Both the position numbers and the translations under genes were made by a program. A DNA stretch of 64,000 nt from Blastopirellula marina DSM 3645 (GTDB taxonomy: Bacteria; Planctomycetota; Planctomycetia; Pirellulales; Pirellulaceae), in NCBI RefSeq assembly GCF_000153105.1, contig NZ_CH672376.1, forward strand, positions 673,092 to 737,091, written 5' to 3'. Of this stretch, positions 3,135 to 29,881 are shown one piece after another (position 1 is the first letter of the stretch; each line of letters starts with the position of its first letter). The notes beneath the pieces are model-generated. The model had not been told where the DNA came from, did no database searches, and saw only the letters and a list, made by a program, of their open reading frames with translations.

Positions 3135-4449
3135 CGAGACCATCGGAAGCATGTATGGCAAGATCACCGGTATGCTGCTTAAGAAGACGAGCCCCTTCGT
3201 CTGACAGTTCCGATATCATAAGGCTAAGCTCACCGACTCGATTTGCTAATGCCTCAATCACTGCATCAGAAAGATTACCACAAGCCAGTGTCAACTCGCC
3301 ATCGAAATGCGATTGTAGGTGCAGAGCGGCTTCGAGCGAAAGTTCAGGAAACGATAAGAATAAGTTTCCCCGGTGTTTTGATAGGCCTGCAGCAACCTCG
3401 GGGTTAAGCTCTGCCTCAGAAGTCACCTCGATGACAAGTTCTCCGCAGTGCTTACCAAGCCACGATGCGCTTGTTGCGGATAGCTTTGTAAGGCCCGCAA
3501 ACCGGAGTTCACCGACATGTCGACTTGCATACTTTGCGGCGGAGTCGGAAATCTCTTTAAGTGCTCCGAAGCTAAGCTCGCCACAATGCCGAGAAAGCGA
3601 TTTTATCGAATTATCCGTTGCAAATGACAATGAACCCAGACATAACCCTCCGATGTGCTTGCTTAAATGACCGGCGGCCTCATCCGAAAGTCTCGTGATC
3701 TCAAGTGAAAGGGAACCGTCTTTCTTTCGAAGTAGCTTCGCTGCATCAGCGTTGATTTCGGAATACTCATCCAGGTCCACTGAGTCGTGATCTGCCAGGA
3801 ATTGTCGGACGATTTCCTTTGTTAAAACGAGCGGGTCAGTCATGCAAAGCCTTGATTTAAGATTGCTGTAGATTGCACCGAAGGACTAACTGGAATTTGC
3901 ATTTCAATTGCTTATACATGATGGGATAGCACACACCCTCCGTACAACTAAAACGAGGCTTTTGCCGAGCGGAAATTTATCGAAACGTGATCGCACGGTC
4001 AACTACACTCCCCACCGATCGGCGTGGGTAACGCGGTTCATCTGAGATATCGAGCGTGCCGTCGCCTGCTTTTTCGGCGTATTTTAGGCAGTCGCAGAGA
4101 TCCCGCAGCCAAGTATTTCTCATGCCGGTCGCCACAGCGAACAGAGCCCGCGGGTATCCAGCTGTCCGTAATCGGTCAAGAGCAGCAAGTGCCTCTGCCT
4201 GCCAGGGGCGTGGCGATAAGGTGACTACGCGAAGGTCGTCCGACTCCGGTTCAAAATGAGCCGCCGGGTACCTGGCTGCGAGTTGCGAGTAGTTATCAAC
4301 AAGCTCTGGAGTCAGCGGCGAAGCGACTTTCCACAGCGATTCAAACTCGGAGACGATTTGCGAGTGGGCCTCTGGCTCTGTGGAATGCTCCCCAAATCCT
4401 GATCCAGATGTTATGAAAGTCTAGAGCCACTTTCGGCGAAGGATTTTTC

Positions 4450-4731
4450 ATGAGCAAGAAGCGACGACGGCATTCTGCCGAACAGATCATCAAGAAGTTG
4501 CGGGACGCGGACGCCATGGTGGCGGCTGGCAAGAGCGTCGGAGAAGTGCTGCAGGCGCTGGAAGTCAGCGAGGCCACTTTGAGCCGCTGGCGATCGCAGT
4601 ATGGCGGGATGAAGAGCGAAGAGGCGAAGCGTCTCAAGTCGCTCGAAGAAGAGAACAATCGACTGAAAAAGATCGTCGCCGATCAGGCCTTGGATATCTC
4701 GATGCTGAAGGAGATCGCCAAGGGAAACTGA
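4450..4731 (+). CDS. IS3-family transposase OrfA
   Basis: A protein of 93 residues with the standard OrfA layout: N-terminal helix-turn-helix (KKRRRHSAEQIIKKL, SEATLSRWRSQYGG) and a C-terminal coiled coil (AKRLKSLEEENNRLKKIVADQ). It is clearly related to the OrfA at 261-545 but not identical, so the two IS3 copies are different elements. An upstream GAAGGA lies close to the ATG. The last codons are AAG-GGA-AAC-TGA, so the slippery heptamer GGGAAAC sits immediately before the stop codon. Confidence 0.88.
   Translation: MSKKRRRHSAEQIIKKLRDADAMVAAGKSVGEVLQALEVSEATLSRWRSQYGGMKSEEAKRLKSLEEENNRLKKIVADQALDISMLKEIAKGN
4722..4728 (+). promoter_or_regulatory. putative -1 ribosomal frameshift site GGGAAAC
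   Basis: In the orfA frame the heptamer reads G-GGA-AAC directly before TGA (4729-4731). It is a canonical X-XXY-YYZ slippery sequence in the correct phase. A -1 slip yields KLTTPQSRRAAVKQL, which continues without a stop into OrfB. The same heptamer in the same phase occurs in the other IS3 copy (minus strand, around 274-280). IS3 elements are known to make the OrfAB fusion by -1 frameshifting, usually on A-rich slippery sites. Confidence 0.6.
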
Positions 4732-5693
4732 CCACCCCTCAGTCGCGACGCGCGGCGGTCAAGCAGCTTCAGGAGAAGTTTTCAGTCTCCGAAAGGCGGG
4801 CCTGTCGCTGGCTCGATCAGCCTCGATCGAGCCAGCGATTTGAGGGGAAGCCGAAGGACGAAGACGTGCGTCTGACCAAGCGGATTTTAGAGCTTGTACG
4901 GCAGCGACCGCGCTGGGGTTATCGTCAGATCTGTCAGTTATTGCGGCGCGAGGGGGAGACCTTGAACATGAAAAAGATGTACCGACTTTGGAAAGCGGCC
5001 GGGCTGAAAGTTCCGCAAAAACGCCGTAAAAAGCGGGCGACAGGCGTCTCGACGAACGCTTGCCACGTGCAGCCGGCCGGGTTCATGCACGACGTGTGGA
5101 CATGGGATTTCATTCAGTCATCGACGATCGATGGCAGGACGATCCGCTTTTTGAACATCGTGGATGAGTACACGCGGCAGTGCCTGGCGATCAAGGTTGG
5201 CCGCAGCATTACCAGCGAAGACGCGATCGATACGCTCGCCGAGCTGTTCGCGATGCATGGCGCGCCGAAGCGGATTCGCTGCGACAACGGCCCAGAGTTT
5301 ATCTCCTGCGCGATCAAGACCTGGCTGGACCTGATCGGCGTCGAAGTACTCTACATCGAACCAGGATCGCCCTGGCAAAACGGCTTGTGCAAAAGCTTCA
5401 ACAGCCGCCTTCGCGACGAATACCTGCACCAGACTGACCTGCTGAGCTTGGAGGACGCAAGGATCAAGGCCCGGGCCTGGCGCGAGGACTTCAACCACAA
5501 CCGCCCGCACAGCTCGCTCGGCTACCTGACCCGGCCGAGTTCGCGCGCCGCTGTGCTGCTTCCACTTCAGTCGCTGCGCTCCTTCCGTTCCAGCAGCACA
5601 GCGACTCCATTGAATCGTTACCTGTTTCCCAAACCAATCTTTCATAACGCTTGGTACAGAAAATTGGGGCAGGCCATCTGCTTCCCGCGTTGA
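4728..5693 (+). pseudogene. IS3-family transposase OrfB, catalytic Glu replaced and C-terminus frameshifted
   Basis: Integrase-core transposase subunit expressed by -1 frameshift from orfA; the first start codon inside the frame is GTG at 4866. The HTH_21 region (RPRWGYRQICQLLRREG) is followed by the rve core with Asp in WTWDFIQ and Asp in RCDNGPEF. The third acidic residue, normally Glu in GYxESFN, is Lys here: NGLCKSFNSRLRDE with AAA at 5391-5393. Near 5530 one base is missing, because the expected tail (LTPAEFARRCAAS) appears in another frame and ends at TAA 5645-5647, while the actual frame runs on to 5693, through the IS terminus. Both lesions argue that the transposase is dead. Confidence 0.85.
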
Positions 5694-6621
5694 AAGCAAG
5701 TTCCACTCAATTCCTGTCTGCAACGCCGGCTTCGACAGATTACTACTGCCGACCGAGAGGAAGCCCTGATGTTCGTCGGCAATACGCCAGGCCTTCGGAT
5801 GAAAGGAGGCTGGCCCAGACGGCAGCTTAGCGATCTCAATCAATTTCACGAGCAGTCGCTCGGCTTGAAACTCTTTCACCGCCGAGTCGCACCACCCCAG
5901 CAGACGCCGCAGGGCCTCGGCATCAGAGATGTAAAGATAGTCGCTGACTAAGATCCGCACTTGGGCCTCGTTCCGAATCGCTTCGAAGAGCCGCTCTTCA
6001 ATGACGTCGAGCCCCGAGAGTTGCACAAACGACGCCAGCACGTCCACGAACCTCGCTCCAGCAATCCGCGATGACAGATGATCCCACAGCGGCGAGCGCG
6101 GATGTCCCGCGCTAAGTTGTTGCAGTCCAACCGGCTTCGTCAGATGCGTAGTCGACTCTGGCGACTTCACCAGATAATTTCCCTTGCCAGGAATCACATG
6201 CCGAACGCCGCCCCGTGGATCGGCCGTGTCGCCCCGGTACCGCGGAATGACATGGATATGAACATGCGGCACCGTCTGACCTGCTGCATCGCCGGCGTTA
6301 AAGCCGACGTTGTACCCATCCGGCTTCTGATCAAGCAATTCGTCCAGCTTAGACTTGACCGCATTTACCAGCTCCATCAAGCCGGCCTGCTCCGCCGCAG
6401 ACGCTTCAAACCAAGTCGGCACCACCCGCCGCGTAATTACCAACGCGCGTCCCGGGCTGACCGGGAAGCCATCAAATATTGCATAGGCTACCGCATTTGA
6501 TGCGATCCAGTCGTTTGGAGATAGATAACGTCCTAATTACTGCGCACATTTGAGAGCCAGCCCTGGCTCTGGTATGGATTTGATTAGCAACATCAACCAC
6601 CACCAGAACCAAGGACTGACC

Positions 6622-7814
6622 ATGACGAATTTACCAGAAGATCGGACCGGCGAAGAGATCCGGGATGCGATTAAAATTGACGGCGAAGCGGTGCGGGGGC
6701 ATCTTGATGAACTGGTCCGCTCGACCGTCGAGGAGACGTTGAACAAGATGCTGGACGCTGAAGCGGATCAGATTTGCAACGCCAAGCGTTACGAGCGGAC
6801 GGCGGACCGCGTCGACTCGCGAGCCGGGTCGTACTCGCGGAAGCTGCAGACCAAGGCGGGCGAGGTCTCGCTAAAGGTTCCTCGGCTGCGAAGCCTGCCG
6901 CTGGAGACGCAGATTATCGAACGTTACAAACGTCGCGAATCGAGCGTCGAAGAGGCGTTGGTCGAGATGTACTTGGCCGGCGTCTCGGTCCGCCGCGTGG
7001 AAGACATCACCGAGGCGTTGTGGGGCACGCGGGTCAGTTCGAGCACCTGGAATGCCCCCATTTTCTGGTCCACTCGTTATGAGAGTTCGGGTTGGGTAAA
7101 AGGTATCGCAGTGGACTGCTGGAGTGCAGGCGCAGCCGGAACGGAAGCAGGCCACTGCGATGCGAAATCTGCGGGGGTTTGGCCGCCCAGACTGCTATGA
7201 GGGCGACGGTGGTTGTAGGTTTGTCGCCAGGCGGCGATGACAGCGAGAGCTGGCGAACGTTCCTACGCCATCTCAAAGAGCGTGGCCTGCAAGGCGTGCG
7301 GCTGATCACCAGCGACAAGTGTCTCGGCCTGGTCGAAGCACTCGGCGAGTTTTTTCCCGAGGCGGCTTGGCAGCGCTGCATCGTGCACTTCTATCGCAAC
7401 GTGCTGAAGGATGTGCCGCGCGGCAAGTCACGCGACGTAGCGGCGATGCTGAAGGCGGTGCACGCCAGAACTGCAGCGAGTGAAAAAGCGGAGCAAGTGG
7501 CCGAGAAACTGGCCGCGTTACGGCTGGGAAACGCAGCAAAATGCTTCCGAGCAGGCGTCCAGGAAACGCTGGCGTACATGAACTTCCCCCGCGAGCACTG
7601 GACAAGACTGCGAAGCAACAACATGCTGGAGCGAATCATGAAAGAGATCCGCCGTCGCACGCGAGTCGTCGGAGCGTTCCCCGACGGCCAAAGCGCCCTG
7701 ATGTTGGTCGCCGCCGGGCTGCGTCACATCGCGGGCACACACTGGGGCACAAGGCGTTACCTGGACATGGACCGCCTGCACGAACCGGAGGAGAGGGAAG
7801 ATCACGCAGAGTAA
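6622..7814 (+). pseudogene. IS256-family (mutator-type) transposase, interrupted
   Basis: N-terminal part from ATG 6622 (MTNLPEDRTGEEIRD) shows classic IS256 features: LDELVRSTVEETLNKML, AKRYERTADRVDSRAGSYSRKLQTKAGEV, VPRLRSLPLET, EMYLAGVSVRRVEDITEALWGTRVS. At about 7050 the IS256 frame is lost and resumes at about 7235 in another frame with WRTFLRHLKERGLQGVRLITSD, FFPEAAWQRCIVHFYRNV and LERIMKEIRRRTRVVGAFPDG. The second catalytic Asp and the Glu survive. The segment with the first Asp (usually YxxLDG) is missing. Roughly 60-70 residues of IS256 were lost or replaced, so it cannot be functional. Confidence 0.88.
7053..7235 (-). mobile_element. IS3-family remnant (orfB 3' end plus terminus) nested in IS256
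   Basis: On the minus strand the frame reads AVIAAWRQTYNHRRPHSSLG, then GQTPADFASQWPA, and ends PFTQPELS with TAA at 7077-7079. This is the C-terminal tail of an IS3 OrfB. It is followed by an IS3 terminus (complement of TGCCCCCATTTTCTGG at 7053) very like the right end of the copy at 5671. The rest of the element is missing and IS256 sequence resumes abruptly between about 7225 and 7245. It is a third IS3 relative, distinct from the copies at 1-613 and 4386-5671. Confidence 0.8.
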
Positions 7815-7815
7815 A

Positions 7816-7851
7816 AAAATGTTTTTGCCGCGCGCGGCAAAAACATTTTTC
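7816..7851 (+). terminator. perfect 18-bp-arm hairpin after IS256 transposase
   Basis: A fully palindromic 36-mer with arms AAAAATGTTTTTGCCGCG and its complement and no loop bases. It lies 2 bp after the transposase stop codon and just inside the right terminal repeat. The GC core followed by a T-rich arm could terminate transcription in either direction. It may also be part of the element's end structure. Confidence 0.6.
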
Positions 7852-7881
7852 CAGAGCCAGGCTGAAAATCAAATGTGCGCA

Positions 7882-8304
7882 ACTTGACGGACACTACCTG
7901 GAGATATCCGAAGAAACGGCGATGACGCCATGCGCGCAACCGGAAAGCTGAAGGAGGATGGCGAGTTGGCTGAAATGTGGTTATTTCACGATCGATTACT
8001 CGCCGTGCGGAAGCAAGTGGTAAGGCATTGGAGAACTCGATGCGAAATAGAATATTGGCAGCCCCAAAAAACAGTTTACTAATGCATCACTGACCAACCT
8101 AAGCATGTCCCATTAGCATGAATTCGTTTTGAGCTAAAGCCTATAGTAGTTGATCCGACAGTACCTGTTGAATTGTGCTAGAAATACGGTTTGTTCGGAG
8201 AAATCAGCAGCTAAACTTTGCAGCGACGCTGGATGATCGGCTCGACTGTGATTTTTATCCAGCGAATGCAACTTCCCTGAGTGAATTGCTGTCGATTCGA
8301 TGCA
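7882..8304. other. intergenic, no gene recognised
   Basis: About 420 bp between the IS256 right end and the 3' end of the SNF2 helicase. No open frame of convincing composition and no continuation of the HIT-PLD gene is seen. AT content is higher than in the core half of the window. Probably degraded sequence. Confidence 0.5.
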
Positions 8305-11061
8305 TCATTGTTTCTCGACTATTCCGACAAAGATTGACGCGACGGCATGCCGCTTTCGCTCCTGAATGTCTTCCGTACTTGGACGTCTAAGTTGTTCAGC
8401 AATTTCTTGTTCAAGCCTGCAGAGCTCTTCGCATGACGGTGCCTCACCAGGCACCTTACTGCGGACTGTTGCATGGTAGAGACCCGAAAAGAAGACTCGG
8501 GATTCCTCACTGCTCAATCCGCGACTCTCACCGCTGGAGTTGACAGCGAACAGCCTTAGGGCCGTAGCATATTCTTGCCAGCCTCGATTTTCGTCGGCCC
8601 GCAGCGTGAGTCTTAAAAATGCCAGGACAGTGACATGAACATTCTTGTCAAAAAATTCGCGATCGCGGCTCCATCTTATGAACGCTGGTCCAACCTTCTC
8701 CTTTTCAAACGCCGCCTTTACGAGCGCGCTCATAGCAAGCGGATGATTAATTCCGAACTGCCACGCGATTTGTCCGTTCGGTCCGTATGCAGGCAATCCT
8801 CCGAGATCTTGACATGCAACAAGCGAATCATCACTCAATTTAAGAACAGGCGACGCGGTCTGCACCGCCTTTGTGCAATCTCCGTCCAGTTCAAATCGTT
8901 CAGCAAAAAATCCCTCTTCGACGATTGTCTTACTATAGCCAAGCATAAAATGTCTCAAATCGTCCCACGCCGCGATTCCCGGATTTTGCGCGCGAATTTG
9001 CCTTTGCTGTTCAGCGTACTTTGAATCGAAAGCCTGCCATCTCTCGTAGCCCTCACGGACCATTTGCGCAAGTTGCTGTTCATTTTGATGTGAAAGCGGC
9101 CCAAGGTCATCCGCAATTAGGAGATGTTGCAACTCCTCAGATGGCAACAAACAAATCACCCGGGAGAAAAGAGCTTCGAAACGTTCAGGCGTTACTAAGG
9201 TAGAGGCTATTAGCCGCAACTTCTCGCGGGCTGCACGATAAGCGTGTTCTTCGCGACTGTCCTTAACAACAATTGTGTCGACAACTATATTTCGCCTGGA
9301 TCCGAATCGATGAACTCGCCCAACACGCTGCTCCATATCCATTGGATTCCACGGAACGTCGATATGGACTAGACGGCGAGCTACTTGAAGATTTATACCT
9401 TCGCCACCTGCTTTCGAGGAAACAAGGAATCGCGCGCCGTCTGGCTTGAGAAATTTTTCGACTTCCGCAGAACGTTCCGCGTCACTTTGGCCTCCGATGA
9501 TTACAGAGACATCCTCACCGTATTCCCGCTTCAGGAAATTCACGAAGGTAGTTACCGTTTCGATGGGTTGAGCGAAGAAGACAATCTTCTCTTCACCCGC
9601 AAGATCGACAACCTTTTCTTTGATGAATTCCCACTTCAGATCAGGGCACTCTCGCACGATCAAAAGCCCCTCGCCAAGCAAGGCATACAAATCCTCAAGT
9701 GTTTGTTGTTCATCCGCACCGTAAGCTTCATCCTCAATATCGTCGACGTCACTATCAGCACTTTGCCGGTGAATCTCCTTTTCCATTCGTTGAAACAGCG
9801 AATTTATATTCTCATCCGCGGGCCCATTGCGATATGGCCGTAGAATTGCGATGGTCTCCGCAAAGGAAGCATCCTCTGGAGTTGCTCCCAAACGAATAGC
9901 CTGCCGTACTAAATAGCCTAGCCCTGCCTGAGGACTGGACGCTGCCCACTGCATGGCTTGCGCACAGCGCCACCCCGCGGCACGTTGTTTCGCCGTCGGT
10001 TCTCCGTTTTCATCAATCCGAGGAGGACAAAAGTGATCATGAATCGCAGATATCCATCGTCGGTAACGATCTCCCAGGTCAATCACCAAGGGAGAATTAA
10101 CGGTCCGACGTGGAAACAGTAGATTTCCATTCCAATCAACGACGTCATCTTTGATTCGAAATATCACACGTCCTTCAATTGCGTTGGAAGGTTCGTCTGG
10201 CCCGCGCAGTAATCCGACGAGATTTTCGAAACGACTGGAGTGGCCTTGGTGTGGTGTCCCGCTCAGAAAGATTACACGACCATTGGGTGCTTGCTTTCGA
10301 ATCAGATCGCGAACCAATCGAAATTTTTCGCGAGGATCCCCTCCACCTTCCGCCCAGTCAGAGAGATGATGGCACTCGTCGACGACAACAACATCCCATG
10401 CTGCCCCACCAAGAATCGAAGCTCGATGTGCTGGATGAACTGCCCGATGTATGCTCGCGACTATACATGGATCATCCAAGCGAGCATCAGCTTGCTGCGA
10501 CGACCATTGGCGAAAGCTAAGACCAAGTCGATCGAATTCCTTCCGCACATTCGAAACAAGCCGCGCCGGCGCGAAATAAATAATTCTTGTTGAAGGACGC
10601 TGTTCAAGCAACTCTTTGATAATCAGACCAGCCTCTACGGTCTTACCGAGTCCTACTTCATCAGCGATTAGCACTCTTCGTAGACTATCGTTGTCGAGTA
10701 CGTGCCGGACTAAACTGACTTGGTGAGCGAGTGTAGATACCTCACGAACATCGAATCTTCTCTGCGGATCTTCGCAAATAAGAAAATAACTGAGTAATCG
10801 CGCAATGCTTCGCTTGCCTAGTGACGAGACATTCGAATCCGCGCTGATTTTAGCGAGCACTTCAACGGGCGATTCATCAGGGGTTAAGCGATTGCTATCC
10901 ATCCCGTTCTCAACAGGAGCATGGCGGTACTGATCCGTTGACAATAGGCGCTGTGGAGGGCGACAGAGGTCAGCGGTGACGATCCCCCACTCTTCAGTGA
11001 CCTTTAGAATTAACCTTGGAAAATCCCATTCCGGATTTCGATAAAAGCAATGAGTTTTCAT
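8305..11061 (-). CDS. SNF2/HepA-type helicase (SF2 ATPase), candidate defence protein
   Basis: A 918-residue SWI2/SNF2-class ATPase. Visible motifs: Walker A ADEVGLGKT at residues 133-141, DECH box at 228-231 (VVVDECHHLSDW), motif III LSGTPHQG. In the second RecA lobe are FLVSSKAGGEGINLQ and HIDVPWNPMDMEQRVGRVHRFG (motifs V and VI). About 60 residues precede the helicase core and a long C-terminal region after about residue 640 has no domain I recognise. Such proteins translocate on double-stranded DNA; relatives include HepA/RapA and the DISARM protein DrmD. The ATG overlaps the stop codon of the upstream dynamin-like gene by 4 bp (ATGA), so the pair is translationally coupled. No nuclease or methylase domain is visible in either protein. 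Function in defence is inferred from the island setting. Confidence 0.88.
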   Translation of the reverse strand: MKTHCFYRNPEWDFPRLILKVTEEWGIVTADLCRPPQRLLSTDQYRHAPVENGMDSNRLTPDESPVEVLAKISADSNVSSLGKRSIARLLSYFLICEDPQRRFDVREVSTLAHQVSLVRHVLDNDSLRRVLIADEVGLGKTVEAGLIIKELLEQRPSTRIIYFAPARLVSNVRKEFDRLGLSFRQWSSQQADARLDDPCIVASIHRAVHPAHRASILGGAAWDVVVVDECHHLSDWAEGGGDPREKFRLVRDLIRKQAPNGRVIFLSGTPHQGHSSRFENLVGLLRGPDEPSNAIEGRVIFRIKDDVVDWNGNLLFPRRTVNSPLVIDLGDRYRRWISAIHDHFCPPRIDENGEPTAKQRAAGWRCAQAMQWAASSPQAGLGYLVRQAIRLGATPEDASFAETIAILRPYRNGPADENINSLFQRMEKEIHRQSADSDVDDIEDEAYGADEQQTLEDLYALLGEGLLIVRECPDLKWEFIKEKVVDLAGEEKIVFFAQPIETVTTFVNFLKREYGEDVSVIIGGQSDAERSAEVEKFLKPDGARFLVSSKAGGEGINLQVARRLVHIDVPWNPMDMEQRVGRVHRFGSRRNIVVDTIVVKDSREEHAYRAAREKLRLIASTLVTPERFEALFSRVICLLPSEELQHLLIADDLGPLSHQNEQQLAQMVREGYERWQAFDSKYAEQQRQIRAQNPGIAAWDDLRHFMLGYSKTIVEEGFFAERFELDGDCTKAVQTASPVLKLSDDSLVACQDLGGLPAYGPNGQIAWQFGINHPLAMSALVKAAFEKEKVGPAFIRWSRDREFFDKNVHVTVLAFLRLTLRADENRGWQEYATALRLFAVNSSGESRGLSSEESRVFFSGLYHATVRSKVPGEAPSCEELCRLEQEIAEQLRRPSTEDIQERKRHAVASIFVGIVEKQ

Positions 11062-13451
11062 TGGATGCAGCCCTTGATTGCCGGAGCAGAGTCAAAAATA
11101 TCTTGCACAAGCTCAAGCACCTTCTTTCGCTTCTGTGCGTCGCTCCGCTTCAGGCTATCTTCGTGACTTGAAACAATGGCGTCGGCGGCAGCCTTGAGCG
11201 GATCAGTGTGGATGCGCCAGGCTTCAACGATTTCCTGCTCTACGGTTCCATAGTTCTCCAGCAGGACTTTTTTTGCCGGCTTCTTAGCCGCATCGATTGA
11301 AACATCTGCCAACTCATCAAATAACTCGAGAATTCGGTTGCGCACGCCTGTACCAAAGTGTTCATCATTGCGAACAAACGCTTGGCATTTGCGTCTGATT
11401 GGGCCCTCGATCGCCTTACAGAGCTCCGCTCTCACATTTTCACGAAGCCCGTCCACTGCGTTTTTTCCGACAGTCGCTAAGTGCTTTGTGTCGGCAGCGA
11501 TCGCCTCCCGCTGTGCCTCAATTAGGCGTGGTTGAACTCGTCCACCTTGCTGCTTGGACCATTCAACAATTTGATCAACGAAACCCAGGCAGTCATCGGA
11601 AAACTCTTTGGTTCTCTTTCGGAGCTCACTCAGGATCAGTTTCCCCCAAGACTCTGCAACCGGATCCTCGAATGCCATGGCGAAATCCGTCGGCAAGTTA
11701 ATATGCCTAGCGCCATAGAACGTCCCATCTCTCTTTACCGCTGCTTGCAGCGTACGCCAATTTGCATCACGAAGCCTCCGTAGGTAACCCCGAATTGATT
11801 TGGTCGCAGACAAACTGGCGTCGACCACGACGGTCTCAATATTTGCAGGAATCGTCTCCTTTAAGAAAGCTCTAAAGCCGCCTTGCCTTGCTCGAAATTC
11901 TTCGCGCAGCGGCTTGATAAAAACATCAAGCTCAGCCTTGAGTGCTTCAGCCTCTTCCTTCGCCCGAGTTTTCTCTTCCCACTTGGCCTTTATTAGTTCC
12001 AGTTGACTCAATAATCGTTGATGCAGCGAAGCTAATCCTTCGGCGAATCGATCGTGTGTCTTGGCCTGAGATGCTTTGGCTAACTCACCAATGCCCTGAA
12101 TGATGTCGGGCACCCCGCTGTCTATTTCGTCGCGTATGAATGGTTGTTCATCCTCGTCGTCAAGGAGCAACTTTCGATATTCGACGGTGGACAATGGAAA
12201 AACGCGTAGCATGCGCGCAATCCGCTCTATCGTCGCATGCTTTCCTCCTCCCAACTCCTCCCCATCGTGTGTCCAGGCTTTGCTGATGCAGGAATGCAAC
12301 TGGCTTCTCACAAGATCAGAGCACTCGATCATTACATCCTTTAAGTGCTCTAATTTCTTCTTTGACTTGTCATTCTGTCTTCGGGAGCTTGCAATTTCGT
12401 CTGCACGTACCACGGCAATAACTAAACTGACTGGATCGGCATTTGGATCGTCGGCAGAATGCAATAAACGTGTCAGGTAACCGCTTGTTCGAAGCAAGTC
12501 GGCATCTGGATCGGTGATTCCTCGATGGCCAACAACTAATACCACAGCCTTCGCGATATTGCGAACCCACTTATCAGCGACTTCTCGGAATACGTCTCCG
12601 GCAATACCAAGCCCAGGTAAGTCGACTAATTGGACTCCATCCCTTAGTAGCGGCGAATTCCATCTGACTTCCAGTTCTCTAATAATCGGGGAGAGGTAGC
12701 CAGCGGCATGATCGTGGAGTTCTTTTGTAAAGTGCTCCGAGCTATGGTCGCGTTCGAACACCGATTCACTTGTCTTGTGTTCGGTATTAAAAATAGTCTT
12801 CAAGCGATTCAGTCTCTCCTCGTCCTCTAACAACAAGGAAGTGTTCCATTTTCGAGGTTTGCCGATTGCTTCGCGTACACCGTCCGCCAAGTACTTCAGA
12901 TCGGATGTCTTATCCTGATTACCAGTCAGTAAAAGCTGTGCTTGCTTTTTAAAGACCTCCGTTTTGTTTTGATCGCCACCTCCTTTTCCCGCGAGTTCAA
13001 TTTCTTCCACCGCTTCCGCATCTAGCAATCCTTTCAGATCAGCATCATCACCGATCACAGCGGCGTGGTCTTCTTCACGACGGATTGCCCCCTCTATTGC
13101 AAAGCCTATCTTCCACAAATTTGCGGGAGAATGATAAATGGCCTCGAATGATGGCGAATCGGCGTAAGAGATTTGGATCGCTTGAGCCGTTAAGGGGCCG
13201 ACTCCACCGCTAGGAACAACAGTCTCACTGCCCGCGACTATCGCATTGATAAGCGTACTCTTCCCAACGCCAGCCCCACCTACGAAACAAATGCCAATTG
13301 GTTCATGGAGCTCTTTTTCCCATTCTTCGAGCTTGCATAGCTCTTGTTCGAGCTCTACAACTCGATCTGGTGCCTCACTTAGCAGAAAGGGCTTCACTTT
13401 CTTTCGAAACCAGACTGATAGAGTCTCAGTGCAGTTCATCTTGACCAGCAT
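11058..13451 (-). CDS. dynamin-like large GTPase
   Basis: A 797-residue GTP-binding protein. G1 is GGAGVGKST at residues 58-66, a Thr for G2 lies in GVGPLTAQ near 88, and G3 is DLPGLG near 276. G4 would be VVRADE near 346, which departs from the usual (N/T)KxD. Residues 100-250 form a charged insertion. The region after about 430 is mainly helical with long stretches rich in Lys, Glu and Arg (KAKWEEKTRAKEEAEALKAE), as in dynamin stalks. No transmembrane helix is evident. Bacterial dynamin-like proteins remodel membranes, and some act in phage defence. It is the first gene of a two-gene unit with the SNF2 helicase. MLVK at 13451 or the Met four codons later (13439) are both possible starts. 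Confidence 0.85.
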   Translation of the reverse strand: MLVKMNCTETLSVWFRKKVKPFLLSEAPDRVVELEQELCKLEEWEKELHEPIGICFVGGAGVGKSTLINAIVAGSETVVPSGGVGPLTAQAIQISYADSPSFEAIYHSPANLWKIGFAIEGAIRREEDHAAVIGDDADLKGLLDAEAVEEIELAGKGGGDQNKTEVFKKQAQLLLTGNQDKTSDLKYLADGVREAIGKPRKWNTSLLLEDEERLNRLKTIFNTEHKTSESVFERDHSSEHFTKELHDHAAGYLSPIIRELEVRWNSPLLRDGVQLVDLPGLGIAGDVFREVADKWVRNIAKAVVLVVGHRGITDPDADLLRTSGYLTRLLHSADDPNADPVSLVIAVVRADEIASSRRQNDKSKKKLEHLKDVMIECSDLVRSQLHSCISKAWTHDGEELGGGKHATIERIARMLRVFPLSTVEYRKLLLDDEDEQPFIRDEIDSGVPDIIQGIGELAKASQAKTHDRFAEGLASLHQRLLSQLELIKAKWEEKTRAKEEAEALKAELDVFIKPLREEFRARQGGFRAFLKETIPANIETVVVDASLSATKSIRGYLRRLRDANWRTLQAAVKRDGTFYGARHINLPTDFAMAFEDPVAESWGKLILSELRKRTKEFSDDCLGFVDQIVEWSKQQGGRVQPRLIEAQREAIAADTKHLATVGKNAVDGLRENVRAELCKAIEGPIRRKCQAFVRNDEHFGTGVRNRILELFDELADVSIDAAKKPAKKVLLENYGTVEQEIVEAWRIHTDPLKAAADAIVSSHEDSLKRSDAQKRKKVLELVQDIFDSAPAIKGCIQ

Positions 13452-14018: not shown

Positions 14019-15251
14019 GTGAGCGCAACGTCCGTCGAATCCCTTCCTCCCTTGGAGCCGCTGCCGTATCACCGGCAGATTCGGGACTATTTGAAGGAGG
14101 AAGAAGCGGAAATCTGGAATTGGTATCGCTCGAATCGCGTGCAAGAGGACCAGGCGGAAACGGTTCGTTTTGAGTTGCTCAAGTCGACTTATCGAATTGA
14201 TCGGGATTCGCAGCCCGATTGGTATGAGATTGCCGATCAGGCGAGGGAGCGGCTGAATCTGGATGTGCCTGTGACGATCTACCAGGCACAGAACGCGAAG
14301 GAGATGAACGCCGGCTTGGCTTATTTGCCGAGTGAGGCTCATATCATCCTCTCGGGCCCGGTCGCGTCGACGCTGAGTCGAGAGGAATTGCTTTCGGTCT
14401 TTGCCCATGAACTTGCGCACTTGCTGCTGTGGCGGCAATGGGACGGCGAGTTTCTGATTGTTGACCAAATCTTGGCCGCTTTAGCGAATGACCGGAAGGC
14501 GCATCCGGCCCATCTGGAGAGCATGCGGCTATTCTATCTTTACAACGAAATCTTTTGCGATCGCGGCTCGCTCTTCGTCGCCAACGATCCGAACGTGGTC
14601 GTCTCGTCCCTGGTGAAGATTTCTTCGGGGCTCGATTCGGTGAACGCTGAAAGCTATCTCAAGCAGGCGGCTGAGATTGTCGAGCGGGCATCGGGGCCAT
14701 CACAAAGTATTTCGCATCCGGAAAGCTACATCCGAGCCCGGGCTGTTCAATTTTGGCACCAGCAGGATGTGGACGCCGAGGCGAAGATTACAGAGATGAT
14801 TCAAGGCCCTCTCGCTTTAAACGAACTTGACCTGCTCGCTCAAAGCATCATCACCGCCAAGACGCGGCGGATGATTGATCTGCTGCTCGCTCCTAGTTGG
14901 ATGCAGACCGATACGATGCTGGGACATGCCCGACGCTTCTTTGATACATACACGCCGCCAGCGGCCAATTATGCCGACGAATCTTTGGCCGCTGATCTGC
15001 TGACCAAGGATCAACCGCTGATCAACTACTATTGCTATGTGCTGCTCGACTTTGTGACGGTCGATCGCGATCTGGAAGAAGCACCGTTGGCGGTCGCCCT
15101 GATTTTGGCGGAGCAATTGAAGCTTCAGTCACGTTTTGTGGAGATCGTCCGTAAGGAACTCAAGCTGCGGAAGAACCAACTGGAACGGATCGATCGCGAG
15201 AAGACCAAAGTGGTGGAAAACGCCGCGAAGGAGTTCGCGCCGAAGCCATGA
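14019..15251 (+). CDS. M48-like metallopeptidase, candidate defence operon component
   Basis: A 410-residue soluble protein with an M48-type zinc protease core. HELAH occupies residues 130-134 (FAHELAHLLLW), and a probable third ligand is Glu177 in YNEIFCDRGSLFVA. The segment before the motif (AGLAYLPSEAHIILSGPV, LSREELLSVF) fits M48 family proteins in which a strand precedes the catalytic helix. No signal peptide or membrane helix is seen, unlike the housekeeping HtpX, so a cytoplasmic role is likely. The C-terminal 180 residues are helical and of unknown function. GTG at 14019 gives the longest frame. The stop overlaps the ATG of the giant helicase by 4 bp, implying coupled translation and probably a shared task. 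The substrate is unknown. Confidence 0.82.
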   Translation: MSATSVESLPPLEPLPYHRQIRDYLKEEEAEIWNWYRSNRVQEDQAETVRFELLKSTYRIDRDSQPDWYEIADQARERLNLDVPVTIYQAQNAKEMNAGLAYLPSEAHIILSGPVASTLSREELLSVFAHELAHLLLWRQWDGEFLIVDQILAALANDRKAHPAHLESMRLFYLYNEIFCDRGSLFVANDPNVVVSSLVKISSGLDSVNAESYLKQAAEIVERASGPSQSISHPESYIRARAVQFWHQQDVDAEAKITEMIQGPLALNELDLLAQSIITAKTRRMIDLLLAPSWMQTDTMLGHARRFFDTYTPPAANYADESLAADLLTKDQPLINYYCYVLLDFVTVDRDLEEAPLAVALILAEQLKLQSRFVEIVRKELKLRKNQLERIDREKTKVVENAAKEFAPKP

Positions 15252-18200
15252 AATTTCAAACCTACCTAACGCAGCGACTAGAGACCGATGGCTTCTCGAC
15301 CGAGGATGCACTTGCGGCGTTCTTGCCGCTGGTACGCGAAACAATCGAAGCGCACGCCGTAGAGCTTGTCGCTCCATTAGTCGGCCTTGACGATTTGAAT
15401 GTAGAAGGCAATCGCATTTGGTTTGAAGAGGCGAAGCGGCTTCCCTTTCGTCGCAACCAAAGCGAACTGCAACAGATTCAGGCGTTGAATCCTGCCGGCG
15501 TCGAAATCGTCAACGAGATCAAACGAACCTCGTCGATCGATGAAGGAGAGGAAAAGACGACCTATCTTTCGCTCGGGGAACGGGGAGAGAAAGTTACTCG
15601 GCCCGTATTTCTGCCGGGCTACGTCGCCTGGGAGCATGAGTGCGAGCATCACGATCCGCTGACCGACATCTTTAGCCTAGGGATGATTCTCGCAAGTCTG
15701 GGGTGCGGGCTCGATTTTACCGAGCAGGACGATCTGGAACGCTTCGCCAGCTCACGCGACAATCTCTTCCGCATTCAGCCGGCCTTGCATCCGGTCTTGG
15801 CCCGGGCAATTGTCAAAATGACGGAGGTCGATCGGCATCGTCGCGCTCAAGACCTCCCGGCGCTGCTTTCTACGCTAGAAAATTACCGCGACCAAGGGAT
15901 CGACTTTGAAATCGACCTTGCACGAATTGAAGGCTTGAAGGAGAAGGATTCCAAAACGAAGCAAGCCGTTGTGCTGACGCGATTGCGAGAGCGACTATTC
16001 GATTTAACGCGACGGAATCGTTTGCTGCACTTCAAAGCGACGATGCAAAGCGTCAATCTGACCCAGGCATCGGTTCCTCTCTCCTTTGACGTCAAGAATG
16101 TTCGTCCCGACCAGATTTTGATCTGGAACGATGCGACGCAGCGGGAATTTGTCAGCGGCAAACCTGTTTCGCTAAACAAATATCTGAACTTTGCGGAGGC
16201 GATTTACCTGCCTAGCCTGCTCGATCGCACCATCGCTGAAGCCAGCCGCGATCAGGCCGAGTATGGCTTTGCTCAGTTGCGACTGGTCGTTTGCTTTTTG
16301 CACTGGGCGAACCTGAAAGAGAAACCGATCGAGCAATACGATTCGCCGTTTGTGCTGCTACCAGTCAAGCTGAGCAAAAAGAAGGGAATCCGCGATACGT
16401 TCCAACTGGAGGTGCTCGAATCGGACGCGGAAATCAATCCGGTCGTCCGGCATCAATTCAAGCAACTCTACAACATCGAACTGCCTATTAGCATTGACCT
16501 GACGAAGACTAGCCTAGATGAGTTCTTCACGCTGCTGGCCAAACGAATTGAGTCGAGCGATGTTTCGGTAACGCTAAAGAAGGTCGATCGCCCGCGTATC
16601 TCACTCATCCACGAGCGTGCCAAACGCCGGCTGGATCAATATCGCCGGCGAGCCCGCCTGGCGGGACGCGGCGTCCGCAAGTTTCTCGAACTCGACTACA
16701 GCTACGATCCGGCCAACTACCATCCGCTGGGGATCAAGCTGTTCGCCGATCGTGTTCGCGTTCCCGAGACGCACTTGCGTTCGATCGTGGAAGAGAAGCC
16801 GCGGCCGCGAACCTTCATGGTCGAGCCGGAATCGCCCGCCGAAGCGGTCAAAGAAAAATCGTTCTACAGTTTGCATGAAGGCGGAGAGGAGAATCCGTAT
16901 ACATGGACGTTTGATCTGTGCAGTGTGACGCTGGCGAACTTCAAGTATCGCAAGATGTCGCTGGTTCGCGACTACGATAGCCTGGTGGGGGAACAGCCGG
17001 CCAGTGTTCCGTTCGAGTCGATCTTCTCTTTGACGCCGAGAGCGGCCCAGCGAACTCTGCCGCAGACGCCGGCCTTAGACGATCGCTTTGACGTTGTGCC
17101 GTGCGATCCGACTCAAGCAACCGCCGTCGAGGAAGCCCGGACCGGCAAGAGCTACATCATTCAGGGGCCGCCGGGAACTGGCAAGTCGCAAACGATTACC
17201 AATCTGATCGCCGACTACGTCGCTCGGGGAAAGCGGGTCCTCTTCGTCTGCGAAAAGCGGGCGGCGATCGATGTGGTGTTCGCCCGGCTCCGTCACTGCG
17301 GTTTGAAGCCTCTCTGCTGCCTGATCCACGATTCACAAACGGATAAAAAAGAGTTTGTGATGGACCTGAAGGAAACCTACGAGCGTTTTCTTCAGGAAGA
17401 GCATTCCAAAACAAAGCTTGTCCGTCGCGATACCGTACTGCGGCGCATGGCGGCCGAGTTGTCGCCGTTGGAAAACTACGACGAAGAGATGACCTGCCAC
17501 CGCGAACAAGCTGGCATGTCGCTGCGAGAGCTGCTGGATCACGGCATTTCGCTGCATCCGCAACTTACAGAAGTTACCCCAGCAGAAAAGGAGCGTTTGC
17601 CGGACTACTCGCTTTGGCCCGGCTCACGTGCGGCGATCGATCGATATTCGACGGCCCTTATTCGCGTTCAGCCAGACGCGATTGCCTCTCGGCATCCGCT
17701 ATTTCTCGTTTCGCCTCAGATGGCCCGGCAAGAAAGTCCGATCGAACTGATTACTTCGGCGATCGAGAACGCCCGTGCTCACTTGGACGCGTTGCAGCAG
17801 CAACTGGGCAAGTCGGGCATTCCCGCCAATCAATGGGAGAACTTGACCAAGGCTCGCGCATTGGTCGACTATGCCCGAAAATTGCAGCCTGTCAGCTCGC
17901 TGGGCCTCACGCCGCTGCTAGACGAGCAGTCTGATATCGCGAAACGCTGGGCCGCACGCACGCACGAGTTTTCGCAGAAGCAGCAGGAAGTCGCCGACGC
18001 CGCCAATAAGACGAAAGCCTGGCGCAGTCGGCTACCGGAAGAGGAAGTCGAAACAGCGATCGACCAGGCACGCGGGTTCGAGGGGAAATGGCTCGCCTGG
18101 CTGAGCCCGCAGTGGTGGCGACTGCGTGGGATCTTGAACCGATCCTATGACTTTTCGTCGCACGTCGTTCGGCCAAGCTGGCGTCAGGTGCTGGAGGGGC

Positions 18201-20794
18201 TTCGCGATGAGTATGCACGGCAAAAGGGAGTTCAGGCATGTGCGGCGTTGATGTCCCAGGAGTTCGGCGCACCGGCCGAAGTTGAATCGTTCCTGACGAG
18301 CCTCGACCGGCTCAAAGCTGACCTACGGACGTTGCCCGCCGAATTGACGCGAGTGCACCAAGCGATGCTAAAATCTCCGCAGGCACAACCGATCGTCGAT
18401 CGATTGATGGCAGCCGATAAGTCGCTTGCCCGCCTGGAGGAAGAGCTAGGGCGATTTGCCGAAGACGTAGACGCGTTACCGCTTAGCCAGCTGGACGGGG
18501 CGCTGTCCAGTGCCGACGATTCGCTCGAAGACTTGCCTGACTTCCTGGAGGCCTTGGAAGAACTTGCAGAGCTTCCGCCAACGATTCGCCGTGCCCTGCG
18601 CACGCTCCCTCTTTCGCCCGCTCAGTTGGAAGCGGCGTCGGCCGCCCACACGGTGGATCTCTGCTATCGACAAGCCAGTTTGCTAGAGACGTTCGACGGC
18701 GGTGAGCGTGCCAAGCATGCCTTGGGACTACAACGACAATACGATCGCTGGTTGGGAGCGAACGCCCGGGAGATTCTGCGAGGCGTCGAAAAGCGATTCT
18801 ATGACCATGTTCGTCTCTGCGAGCTGCCTGCCGCCAAACTATCGGCGGACGAAAAGGAGCACAAAAAATCGTACAGCCGCGGGCGACGTGAATTGGAGCA
18901 TGAGTTTGGCAAGTCAATGCGGTACAAGCCGATCCGCGAGCTTGTTTCCGGCGAGTCGGGCGATGTGATCAAAGACCTGAAGCCGGTCTGGCTGATGAGC
19001 CCGCTGAGCGTTTCCGACACGCTGCCGCTGGATACGAAACACTTCGATGTCGTGATCTTCGACGAAGCGAGCCAACTAACGCTCGAAGAATCGATCCCCT
19101 CCATCTTTCGGGCGACGCAGTGCATTGTGGTGGGAGACGAAATGCAACTCCCTCCGACTGACTTCTTCTCGACCAAGCGGAGTGAAGACGAAGATGACGA
19201 ACTTCTGATCGAAGAAGAAGGGGAACTCGTCCAGTACGACCTGGAGAGCGACAGCTTCCTGAATCACGCGGCCAAAAATCTTCCTTCCACCATGCTGGGT
19301 TGGCATTACCGCAGCCGCAGCGAATCGCTGATCAGCTTCTCCAATTGGAAGTTCTACGACGGTCGCTTGTTGACCGTTCCCGAAGATCGAATTTCGGACA
19401 AGTTGCGTCCGGCGATCTCCGTCAAACAAGATTTCTCGCCATCGCAGGGTGCCCAGACGTTACTGGAGCGAGCCGTCAGCTTTCACTACCTGCCCACGGC
19501 CAACTATGAAAATCGCCGCAACACCGCCGAGGCCGAATATATCGCCGGCATGGTTCGCGAGTTGATCCGCGAGCCAGGAGGGAAAACAGTTGGCGTGGTC
19601 GCCTTCTCCGAAGCTCAACAAGGCGAAATCCAAGACGCCCTTTTACGCCTGGCCGGCGAAGACGCCGAGTTCGCCAGCCGGCTGGACGCCGAATACGAAC
19701 GAGAAGACGACGGCCAGTTTGTCGGCCTGCTGGTGAAGAACCTGGAAAACATCCAAGGAGACGAACGCGACATCATCATCCTGAGCGTTTGCTACGGCAG
19801 AGATCGCCAAGGCAAGATGCGAATGAACTTCGGCCCGATCAACAAGAGCGGAGGCGAAAAGCGGCTAAACGTCGCGTTCTCCCGAGCCAAAGAGCATATG
19901 GCCCTGGTCAGTTCCATCAAACATGCCGAGATCACCAACGACTACAACGACGGGGCCAACTGCCTGAAACAATATCTCCGCTACGCCGAAGCAGCTTCCG
20001 CGAGCGACAACACCACCATCCATAGCGTTCTACGCGGGCTGTCCCGCTGGATGGACCAGGCAGAAGCGAAGCCCAAACAATCGGCCCTGGCCGAGATCCT
20101 CTGCACAGCGCTGCGAGAGCGAGGCTACATCGTCGACGCCAACGTAGGGCATTCGTATTTCCGCTGCGACTTGGCTATTCGCCGCCCGGAAGACGAAGCG
20201 TATCGCTTGGGAATATTTCTCGATACACCGGAGCACTACGAACAGGCTGACCTGCTGGAGCGAGATATGATGCGGCCGAGACTGCTTCGTAACTTCGGCT
20301 GGCGCGTGACCCAGGTCCTGGCGAAGGATTGGTTTGGCGATCCTGCGAAGGAGCTGGATCGCCTTCTGAATATCCTTGCGGGGGAGGAAGATCCCTGGCT
20401 TGCCTTACGTGAGGATGAATCAGAGGAGCTGTCTGAAACCGAATCCACCGCTGAGGAGCCTACTTCCGTTGCAACATTGCCTGAAGCCGCAAGCGAGAAC
20501 GATCTCGACGCTCCACCTTTGGATTTATCGCGATCCTCGATTGAACCTTTAACGATCCATGCGGAAGAGCCGGCAGCGATTGAAAAGACCTACTTGGAAC
20601 TGAAGGACGATCGCTCCCAGAAGTTTTGGGAGATCACTTTGAGCGGGAATTCCCATACTGTTCGTTTTGGGAGGATTGGGACTTCTGGTCAGTCGCGTAC
20701 GAAGTCGTTTGTCGATTATTCGTCGGCTGCTAAAGATTACCAGCGGTTAATTCGGGAGAAGACCGCGAAAGGATATTGTGCAGCTCGCACGTAG
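15248..20794 (+). CDS. multidomain pseudokinase-DUF4011-SF1 helicase-Vsr nuclease-WGR protein
   Basis: A 1,848-residue protein. Residues about 20-225 resemble a protein kinase lacking its N-lobe: IEAHAVELVAPLVGL at the catalytic loop without HRD, then GYVAWEHE, DPLTDIFSLGMILASL and a helical C-lobe, so a pseudokinase. DUF4011-type region at about 240-430 (LRERLFDLTRRNRLLHFK). SF1 helicase: Walker A GPPGTGKS 640-647, DEAS 1272-1275 (VVIFDEASQLTLEE), GDEMQLPPTDFF, and a C-terminal lobe with NIQGDERDIIILSV and RLNVAFSRAKEHM. Vsr/MTES_1575-like nuclease at about 1610-1710 (RGYIVDANVGHSYFRCDLAI). WGR domain at about 1778-1848 (VRFGRIGTSGQ). DUF4011-helicase-Vsr proteins are known from the Hhe phage-defence system. 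The kinase-like start, the WGR end and the coupled M48 gene are additions I do not know from that system. Confidence 0.88.
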   Translation: MKFQTYLTQRLETDGFSTEDALAAFLPLVRETIEAHAVELVAPLVGLDDLNVEGNRIWFEEAKRLPFRRNQSELQQIQALNPAGVEIVNEIKRTSSIDEGEEKTTYLSLGERGEKVTRPVFLPGYVAWEHECEHHDPLTDIFSLGMILASLGCGLDFTEQDDLERFASSRDNLFRIQPALHPVLARAIVKMTEVDRHRRAQDLPALLSTLENYRDQGIDFEIDLARIEGLKEKDSKTKQAVVLTRLRERLFDLTRRNRLLHFKATMQSVNLTQASVPLSFDVKNVRPDQILIWNDATQREFVSGKPVSLNKYLNFAEAIYLPSLLDRTIAEASRDQAEYGFAQLRLVVCFLHWANLKEKPIEQYDSPFVLLPVKLSKKKGIRDTFQLEVLESDAEINPVVRHQFKQLYNIELPISIDLTKTSLDEFFTLLAKRIESSDVSVTLKKVDRPRISLIHERAKRRLDQYRRRARLAGRGVRKFLELDYSYDPANYHPLGIKLFADRVRVPETHLRSIVEEKPRPRTFMVEPESPAEAVKEKSFYSLHEGGEENPYTWTFDLCSVTLANFKYRKMSLVRDYDSLVGEQPASVPFESIFSLTPRAAQRTLPQTPALDDRFDVVPCDPTQATAVEEARTGKSYIIQGPPGTGKSQTITNLIADYVARGKRVLFVCEKRAAIDVVFARLRHCGLKPLCCLIHDSQTDKKEFVMDLKETYERFLQEEHSKTKLVRRDTVLRRMAAELSPLENYDEEMTCHREQAGMSLRELLDHGISLHPQLTEVTPAEKERLPDYSLWPGSRAAIDRYSTALIRVQPDAIASRHPLFLVSPQMARQESPIELITSAIENARAHLDALQQQLGKSGIPANQWENLTKARALVDYARKLQPVSSLGLTPLLDEQSDIAKRWAARTHEFSQKQQEVADAANKTKAWRSRLPEEEVETAIDQARGFEGKWLAWLSPQWWRLRGILNRSYDFSSHVVRPSWRQVLEGLRDEYARQKGVQACAALMSQEFGAPAEVESFLTSLDRLKADLRTLPAELTRVHQAMLKSPQAQPIVDRLMAADKSLARLEEELGRFAEDVDALPLSQLDGALSSADDSLEDLPDFLEALEELAELPPTIRRALRTLPLSPAQLEAASAAHTVDLCYRQASLLETFDGGERAKHALGLQRQYDRWLGANAREILRGVEKRFYDHVRLCELPAAKLSADEKEHKKSYSRGRRELEHEFGKSMRYKPIRELVSGESGDVIKDLKPVWLMSPLSVSDTLPLDTKHFDVVIFDEASQLTLEESIPSIFRATQCIVVGDEMQLPPTDFFSTKRSEDEDDELLIEEEGELVQYDLESDSFLNHAAKNLPSTMLGWHYRSRSESLISFSNWKFYDGRLLTVPEDRISDKLRPAISVKQDFSPSQGAQTLLERAVSFHYLPTANYENRRNTAEAEYIAGMVRELIREPGGKTVGVVAFSEAQQGEIQDALLRLAGEDAEFASRLDAEYEREDDGQFVGLLVKNLENIQGDERDIIILSVCYGRDRQGKMRMNFGPINKSGGEKRLNVAFSRAKEHMALVSSIKHAEITNDYNDGANCLKQYLRYAEAASASDNTTIHSVLRGLSRWMDQAEAKPKQSALAEILCTALRERGYIVDANVGHSYFRCDLAIRRPEDEAYRLGIFLDTPEHYEQADLLERDMMRPRLLRNFGWRVTQVLAKDWFGDPAKELDRLLNILAGEEDPWLALREDESEELSETESTAEEPTSVATLPEAASENDLDAPPLDLSRSSIEPLTIHAEEPAAIEKTYLELKDDRSQKFWEITLSGNSHTVRFGRIGTSGQSRTKSFVDYSSAAKDYQRLIREKTAKGYCAART

Positions 20795-27480: not shown

Positions 27481-27485
27481 CGAAG

Positions 27486-27851
27486 TGGAGGCGGCGGGAT
27501 TTGAACCCGCGTCCCGCGACATTTTCATGCAAGCATCTACGTGTGTAGTCGATTATTTGATTTTTGCAGGCGACGTCTCCAATCGACGAGATACGCCGCC
27601 CACTAGCAAGGAACTTGATTTAGTCTTCAGCGTGCTTTGCGTGACTGAAGACGAGTCGGAATTGGCGACCGGTTTTCAGATCTCTCCGACAAAGACCTTC
27701 AACCGGCAAGCTAACCTATTTAACTAGGCAGCAAGGACGAGAGTATTATTCTCGGCAATTATAGTTGTAGTCAGCTTTTAACGAGGCCCACTGACCAACC
27801 TCGACACGCCACTTACACTTCAGGCTATCCGGTCGATTCCAATTCGCCCCC
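27486..27851 (-). ncRNA. ssrA: transfer-messenger RNA (tmRNA)
   Basis: The 5' end GGGGGCGAATTGGAATCGAC and 3' end GGGTTCAAATCCCGCCGCCTCCA give a tRNA-like domain with acceptor stem GGGGGCG/CGCCTCC (one G-U pair), discriminator A and a T-arm GCGGG-TTCAAAT-CCCGC. The terminal CCA is not encoded. The mRNA-like part (27756-27724) starts with resume codon GCC and reads AENNTLVLAA followed by TAG, a typical hydrophobic tag ending LAA. About 366 nt, normal for bacteria. Its product rescues stalled ribosomes together with SmpB. The 3' end is a frequent attachment site for islands, which fits the integrase next to it. Confidence 0.95.
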
Positions 27852-29214: not shown

Positions 29215-29248
29215 GTAGCCCGAATCAGCCAAAAATCGTCACACCAAC

Positions 29249-29333
29249 CAGAGTCGCAGGCCGATGGAATGCGGCTGGCCACTTCAATCCCAGTTAGGTT
29301 CGCCGACCGCATTCCATCGGCTTGCGCCTCTGG
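29249..29333. repeat. extended inverted repeat
   Basis: Perfect 14-bp arms CCGATGGAATGCGG (29261-29274) and CCGCATTCCATCGG (29307-29320), with flanking imperfect pairing (CCAGAGTCGCAGG against CTTGCGCCTCTGG) extending the arms to about 27 bp. Could form a large cruciform or RNA hairpin between the convergent genes. Confidence 0.8.
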
Positions 29334-29462
29334 CTAGTGTTCGAGTGGTTCGAAAAGGAGCAACTTCAAAAAACGCGATCCACGGAAAACGGTCTCTATC
29401 TCGCATGACGAAACCTGGGAACGCCTTAGCGTGCTTCGTGCTTGATGCCATCTTCGTGATTA

Positions 29463-29499
29463 GTTTCACAATGTGGACTGGACTGCTTCGTTTTTTTTC
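29463..29499 (+). repeat. 37-bp direct repeat, copy 2
   Basis: Identical to 29178-29214. Confidence 0.9.
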
Positions 29500-29881
29500 A
29501 GACCAGTGGATCGAACGCGCCTGCATCGTCCTGCATGAGACATTCGTCCTTAGAAATTAGTCATTTATTCTCTCCTGGGAACAGAAGGGAAACAGCTGCC
29601 CAAGAGGCGTCCAGCGGTCGGCTCGAGTTGGGCGCCGAAAATTGCCATCGCGCAGCAACACAACCTCGAATCAGCCTTCTCGGCCGCCGAGAAATCTTGG
29701 TTTGGAATTTCCTGGGCAATGGACCCCGGATTTGTGCGCTTTGTCAAGCGACAAAGTTTGCTGCTGCTTCCGGTTGGCGCATCCTACGGAAATTTGACCA
29801 ACGGATTGGGCCCTATGTGCGCCTGTCACTCACGCACAAGCCTTGCCACGCGAGGCCCCGTGGCAAGGGCGACCATGCTTC

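Follow-up and report, generated by a model that had tools for sequence, protein, structure and literature searches.

A dynamin-family GTPase paired with an SNF2-type helicase in two bacterial phyla looks like an undescribed two-part defence system

A long dynamin-family GTPase and an SNF2-type helicase are encoded by two overlapping genes of Blastopirellula marina DSM 3645, and together they appear to be a so far undescribed defence system of two parts. Both genes lie in a stretch of 64,000 nucleotides (contig NZ_CH672376.1, positions 673,092 to 737,091), here called the window (Table 1). They form a genuine two-gene module that was found only as a pair and is patchily spread. A role of this pair in defence is likely, and the explanation we favour, with moderate confidence, is a mobile two-gene counter-invader module whose proteins act as one machine. 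It is favoured because of the co-occurrence and adjacency of the genes, their overlaps, a control with other dynamin loci, a mirror-tree comparison, the conserved motifs, the patchiness and the neighbouring genes. Counted against it were broken GTPase genes in two genomes (G352 and G401), the lack of a nuclease match, the hand-picked choice of neighbours and the narrowness of the control.

Research on dynamins has concentrated on their work at membranes, and that on SNF2 proteins on their work at DNA. With the two coupled in one pair, seen only together and in two phyla, the joint action of a dynamin and a DNA translocase in immunity becomes directly testable. If protective, the pair would be a system that none of the defence profiles scanned names, and it would offer a simple setting for asking what bacterial dynamins do against phages. 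An earlier note, made from the sequence of the window alone, had taken the pair to be undescribed, and our literature search, which covered few subscription papers, likewise found no account of it. The nearest report is on an integrative element of Cronobacter that encodes both an SNF2 helicase and a GTPase of the LeoA family; the accessible part of the paper does not say whether the two genes are adjacent (PMC12757443). The available text of PMC12246121 holds nothing on a dynamin-SNF2 combination, that of PMC10855318 has dynamins only as a table entry and a reference, and the words dynamin and GTPase are absent from the excerpts at hand of PMC12839542 and PMC10853773. As far as the accessible sections of PMC12595487 tell, island dynamins were inactive against the phages tested.

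Table 1. Features of the window that are discussed in the text.
Feature	Position	Strand	Description
SNF2-family helicase, second gene of the pair	8305..11061	-	918 aa; Helicase_C 2.3e-19, SNF2-rel_dom 4.2e-6
Stop/start overlap ATGA, GTPase-SNF2	11058..11061	-	4 nt
Dynamin-family GTPase, first gene of the pair	11058..13451	-	797 aa; Dynamin_N 5.5e-9
GTPase motifs, window copy	G1 aa 58-66, G2 around T88, G3 aa 277-280, G4 D351		G4 motif loose
SprT/M48-like protein	14019-15251	+	first gene of divergent neighbour pair; context
DUF4011-SF1 helicase-MTES_1575-WGR protein	15248-20794	+	1848 aa; second gene, overlaps first; context
tmRNA gene	27485..27851	-	its 3' end is where two of the three genomes from the genus cease to be similar; context

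Properties of the two proteins

The earlier note had described a GTPase of 797 residues with G1 and G3 motifs, an SNF2 protein of 918 residues with the motifs ADEVGLGKT and DECH, and an ATGA overlap of four nucleotides between their genes; the open reading frames confirmed all of this. G1 (GGAGVGKST) and G3 (DLPGLG) are both intact in the GTPase of the window. Dynamin_N was matched in all six GTPases scanned. The motif alignment comprises eight of the nine loci found; in the ninth, L025, the GTPase is reduced to its C-terminal part. G1 to G3 are recognisable in all eight aligned GTPases, and the G4 aspartate is retained in each of the seven that cover the site, the remainder of G4 being loose. 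By its G domain with G1 to G4, the long GTPase is thus assigned, on sequence grounds, to the dynamin superfamily.

Against solved structures the GTPase profile matched EngA best, along the P-loop stretch (2e-9), followed by the membrane dynamins C. jejuni DLP (5owv, 2.9e-7) and BDLP (2j68, 8e-7). The presence of membrane dynamins among these matches, although after EngA, speaks for a membrane sensor coupled to a DNA effector, along the lines of the earlier note: the GTPase would sense phage entry at the membrane and pass the DNA to the SNF2 protein, similar to the way in which Zorya links its membrane motor to DNA-damaging partners. The same can be said of B. subtilis DynA, which clusters at membranes and delays lysis during phage infection according to the portion of PMC8844932 available. 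However, no 19-residue window of eight GTPase sequences (those of L021 and L026 partial) exceeded a Kyte-Doolittle score of 1.5, and with maxima at or below this value no transmembrane segment is evident. In addition, the fold model of the window GTPase, built on a two-row alignment, predicts long helices but is too poor (pTM 0.34) for placing a lipid tip. We consider such a membrane sensor rather unlikely.

The SNF2 protein of the window has intact ADEVGLGKT and DECH motifs. Motifs I-VI can be made out in its core (about aa 107-623), while about 100 aa at the N-terminus and about 295 aa at the C-terminus are without a Pfam match. Motifs I-III can be recognised in all eight aligned SNF2 proteins, two of which carry DEAH instead of DECH, and motif VI is present in all seven sequences that cover it. 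Judged by these core motifs, the second gene is predicted to encode an SNF2-type SF2 helicase. Its closest solved relative by sequence is RapA (3.8e-41); the fold model, again from a two-row alignment, was too poor for a fold search (pTM 0.30). A domain scan gave no nuclease domain match in either protein.

Recurrence of the gene pair

The two genes stand side by side in further, unrelated genomes, as a check called for by the earlier note showed. In all nine loci from two phyla, the window included, the SNF2 gene lies directly downstream of the GTPase gene on the same strand, and gene order is therefore constant in every carrier found. A 4-nt overlap joins the genes in seven of these loci (window, L021, L022, L024, L025, L027 and L069), reading ATGA in six and GTGA in L027; intergenic gaps of 3 nt (L023) and 19 nt (L026) take its place in the other two. 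The SNF2 frames of L022 and L027 are open further upstream, and there the 4-nt overlap depends on the start chosen inside the longer frame. An ATGA overlap of stop and start is a sign of coupled translation, and both genes are probably read from a shared transcript.

Among 392 genomes from the phylum of the window (Planctomycetota), seven carry the GTPase family (G000, which is the window's own, G352, G252, G225, G358, G162 and G401); two of 282 Myxococcota carry it as well, namely G481 (Polyangium fumosum, locus L027) and G649 (locus L069). The first search matched 23 genomes, of which 16 were not kept, their matches near the P-loop scoring no more than 25.7 bits. In Myxococcota, G481 and G649 were kept out of 120 matching genomes and G527 was noted (143.6 bits), the rest reaching at most 44.5 bits. 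A GTPase scan of genome contigs gave at least one relative. The SNF2 search (E <=1e-40) matched 12 of 392 genomes in the window's phylum, and the seven that scored above 300 bits are the same seven GTPase carriers; the remaining five match the SNF2 protein in its helicase core only, with 140-171 bits (maximum 171.3). Three of 282 Myxococcota matched at this threshold, both GTPase carriers with more than 800 bits and a third genome with a core-only match of 140 bits. These core-only genomes, five and one, were set aside. Neither gene was seen without its partner in the 674 genomes, where scoring was limited to the top two or three candidates of each genome. The earlier note would have given up its proposal had the genes stood apart in most relatives; within this scope they do not.

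The two proteins also diverge in a correlated manner. Over eight loci, the pairwise identities of the GTPases and of the SNF2 proteins correlate with r = 0.81, a value reached in 73 of 20000 label permutations, with four of the 16 input proteins partial (GTPases of L021 and L026; SNF2 proteins of L023 and L026). As the pair stands in nine loci of two phyla, with motifs kept in the eight aligned, its association is more than chance. For a control, 20 other Dynamin_N loci comprising 251 kb were searched with tblastn (1e-3) and by profile, and none held an SNF2 match. All control proteins score above the Dynamin_N cut-off; in 18 of the 20 loci the sequence continues downstream of the dynamin gene for 2.5 kb or more, and in 13 it reaches as far on both sides. 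Ten of the 20 control dynamins are of one TPR-bearing type, and the control is consequently less diverse than its number. This type (L105-L108, L110-L115) is a recurrent myxobacterial protein that combines long TPR repeats with a dynamin G domain.

Two carriers of one family, G352 and G401, have damaged GTPase genes. An in-frame stop interrupts the gene in G352 (L021, 9556-9558), and the N-terminal part of the gene is missing in G401 (L025, 10972-11571); both genomes retain an open SNF2 gene. Between these loci, L021 and L025, the SNF2 gene shows a dN of 0.054 and a dS of 0.471. Either the module is decaying in these genomes, or else the SNF2 protein has a role alone.

Distribution and mobility

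None of 97 other relatives from the same genus, family or order has the GTPase. To compare the locus within the genus, 40 kb of each of three genomes (G001, G002 and G003) were aligned with the window. Similarity to G003 (92%) and G001 ends at 27483 and 27486, respectively, whereas G002 is collinear with the window further, from 25580. Short matches to G001 follow at 360-759, 1861-2449 and 4377-5684, the last two within transposase genes. No counterpart of the window's pair stands beside the tmRNA gene in these three genomes; the GTPase was found in none of them, and the SNF2 protein was not found at 1e-40 in G002 and G003. From anchor to anchor the window measures 62.3 kb and G002 11.0 kb, which corresponds to about 51 kb of extra DNA; this figure is rough, because the far anchor shared with G002 resembles an AAA ATPase gene by eye and may itself be mobile. 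A scan of 72 kb for an integration repeat found the tmRNA end in a single copy, and no attachment repeat came to light.

Searches of 72,556 plasmid and 50,697 phage records gave no match to the GTPase, and pattern-based scans of viral contigs gave no relative of either protein. The SNF2 protein was considered as a plasmid-borne gene and rejected: 679 plasmid records match, none covering 80% of the protein, and the 25 matches listed cover 56-68%.

This patchy distribution bears on another reading, by which the pair serves DNA maintenance and not defence, handling stalled polymerases or sister chromosomes much as RapA and E. coli CrfC do. The rank of RapA as closest solved relative fits such a role, as does CrfC, a DNA-linked E. 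coli dynamin that is cited as coupling nascent DNA strands (PMC6104087, accessible part). However, a pair found in only nine of 674 genomes, whose GTPase is missing from the 97 relatives and which has no counterpart at the tmRNA gene of three genomes of its own genus, argues for something else than maintenance, and so does the low score of the helicase against the RapA family model (see below). We regard a maintenance function as distinctly improbable.

Genes beside the pair

A restriction, nuclease, Abi-type or candidate-defence gene adjoins the pair in five of nine loci (window, L024, L025, L026 and L069), the neighbours having been hand-picked by eye for scanning and their counts coming without a computed null. 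In L024 the neighbours are HNH and DUF5655/NucS-like genes. HNH and AIPR_N genes adjoin the pair in L025, with Vsr one gene further, and a T5orf172 gene adjoins it in L026, with PDDEXK_4 and HsdS further up. L069 has HsdR as a neighbour and L023 a WYL regulator. In L021 and L027, one scanned neighbour each and further neighbours inspected by eye included no defence gene, and the contig of L022 is 6 kb long. In L025 the gene with the N-terminal domain of AIPR (abortive infection) lies at 7630-8088 on the minus strand, directly downstream of the SNF2 gene.

In the window, the two overlapping genes at 14019-20794 are, as far as their sequences tell, a candidate for a separate defence pair. The second of them resembles PADLOC PDC-S37 (1.7e-214) and scores 694 of the 1500 bits required by NCBIfam antiphage_ProA, under the cut-off.

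Comparison with known systems

The earlier note had asked whether the helicase is simply DrmD or HepA with its usual partners. The identities DrmD, DpdE and RapA/HepA were all rejected, since the SNF2 protein of the window scores far under the curated NCBIfam equivalog cut-offs, with 184.9 of 500 bits for DpdE, 176.1 of 610 for DrmD and 144 of 576 for RapA. The proposed comparison with defence profiles could be made in part: PADLOC was used on single proteins, without system rules, and in these scans 60 profiles match the SNF2 protein, led by DrmD, BrxH and HmaA, while the window GTPase matches LeoBC only. The likeness to DrmD of DISARM and DpdE of Dpd is that of one broad helicase group, the DrmD profile being the best match (2.2e-47). 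However, no DISARM partner (DrmA, DrmB, DrmC or methylase) and no Dpd partner gene was present among the nine window proteins scanned. Two cross-matches between helicases were seen, of the DrmA profile to the SNF2 protein itself (2e-31) and of the DpdJ profile to the protein at 15248-20794 (4.6e-7).

The profiles BrxHI (2.4e-46) and HmaA (5.7e-43) match the SNF2 protein as well, but their best stretches lie within aa 98-622, which is the helicase core, and the nine proteins gave no match to other BREX or Hma proteins. With regard to RapA and the BREX-related RapA-like helicases, RapA is the best solved match of our protein, but the partner here is a dynamin. In the accessible text of PMC12839542, BREX-related helicases are said to join the SNF2 core to accessory domains.

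Zorya also combines a powered device with an SNF2-type helicase, ZorD, whose profiles match the SNF2 protein at 5.5e-17. The device in that system is the ZorAB membrane motor (PMC11890865, seen in part), whereas here it is a GTPase with no evident transmembrane segment. B. subtilis DynA, which is anti-phage, and the C. jejuni DLP pair are bacterial dynamins like ours. They differ in that the accessible literature reports no helicase partner for them and in that the window GTPase is without a clear membrane segment.

On the GTPase side there is a likeness to Eleos. That system consists of dynamin-type GTPases and is not known to include an SNF2 helicase. LeoBC is the best PADLOC match for all five long GTPases scanned, at 6e-12 over the G domain in L069 and at 2.1e-7 to 1.4e-5 in the others; the match of the window GTPase, 1e-4, lies around the P-loop. 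L069 also departs from the earlier note's picture of just two genes. Here, a third gene (10506-12398), for a second dynamin of 630 aa, lies upstream and shares 4 nt with the long GTPase gene. A gene of the same type, encoding 674 aa, lies at a contig end in G527 (L070, 8241-10265), and the LeoA profile gives 3.3e-8 with the L070 protein and 5.4e-5 with the second dynamin of L069. In this second dynamin type of L069 and L070, more than 200 aa at the N-terminus match no Pfam family. Bacterial dynamins mostly occur in pairs (PMC6104087, in the part available), and the gene trio of L069 suggests a link to such paired dynamins, either form possibly being the older one.

One might go further and see in the pair an Eleos-type dynamin system that recruited an SNF2 protein, with a three-gene, two-dynamin operon as the ancestral form and the two-gene form having lost one dynamin. 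The trio of L069, the related gene of L070, the LeoBC and LeoA matches and the composition of the Cronobacter element are all consistent with this idea. However, the matches to Eleos profiles extend no further than the G domain and, except in L069, are weak, and a second dynamin was seen by eye beside none of the other eight pairs, L022 and L024 offering little upstream sequence. The shorter, different dynamin of G527 is without an SNF2 match at 1e-40, though its contig ends 60 bases past the gene. An Eleos ancestry appears very doubtful to us. Eleos itself calls for both LeoA and LeoBC, whereas the window copy has a single dynamin and no LeoA among the nine proteins scanned; L069, with two dynamins, comes closer.

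Proposed mode of action

For the favoured counter-invader module, the following course can be envisioned. One transcript with coupled translation would yield both proteins together. The SNF2 protein, with RapA as nearest solved relative, probably detects or moves along invading DNA: it would bind double-stranded DNA, travel along it and recognise DNA that is abnormal or comes from an invader. As the other component, the GTPase probably assembles either around the SNF2-DNA complex or at the adjacent membrane, and in this role it may act as the effector of a physical partnership. Its use of GTP would then block further entry or use of the DNA, or stop the cell. DNA block, membrane effect and cell arrest are thus the candidate outcomes.

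A more specific idea is that the GTPase itself acts on DNA, assembling on DNA that is held by a dedicated SNF2 translocase and corralling invading genomes; we think this improbable as well. In terms of sequence, the long GTPase is possibly related to the SLIP-GC-type dynamin-like GTPases of the nucleus. Pfam DUF7605, which we take to belong to SLIP-GC-like proteins, matched the same C-terminal part below the cut-off in L027 (9.1e-5), L026 (0.0012) and L023 (0.66), with no match in the GTPase of the window. Weak DUF7605 matches occur elsewhere in the same genomes too, and in 12 of 14 control genomes at E <=1, which speaks against the link.

Further observations in the window

Three features of the window are of minor interest. 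A frame at 5118-6443 on the minus strand has a HIT and a weak PLD-like domain match; it was apparently cut by an insertion, as its end runs antisense into an IS3-type transposase gene (4450-5693). A Mutator-family transposase at 6550-7814 on the plus strand is split across two overlapping frames. Finally, the space between longer frames at about 29218-29760 holds a repeat that resembles numerous sites in G000 and G003. Matches to both strands are frequent, as would be expected of a dispersed repeat family of palindromic type.
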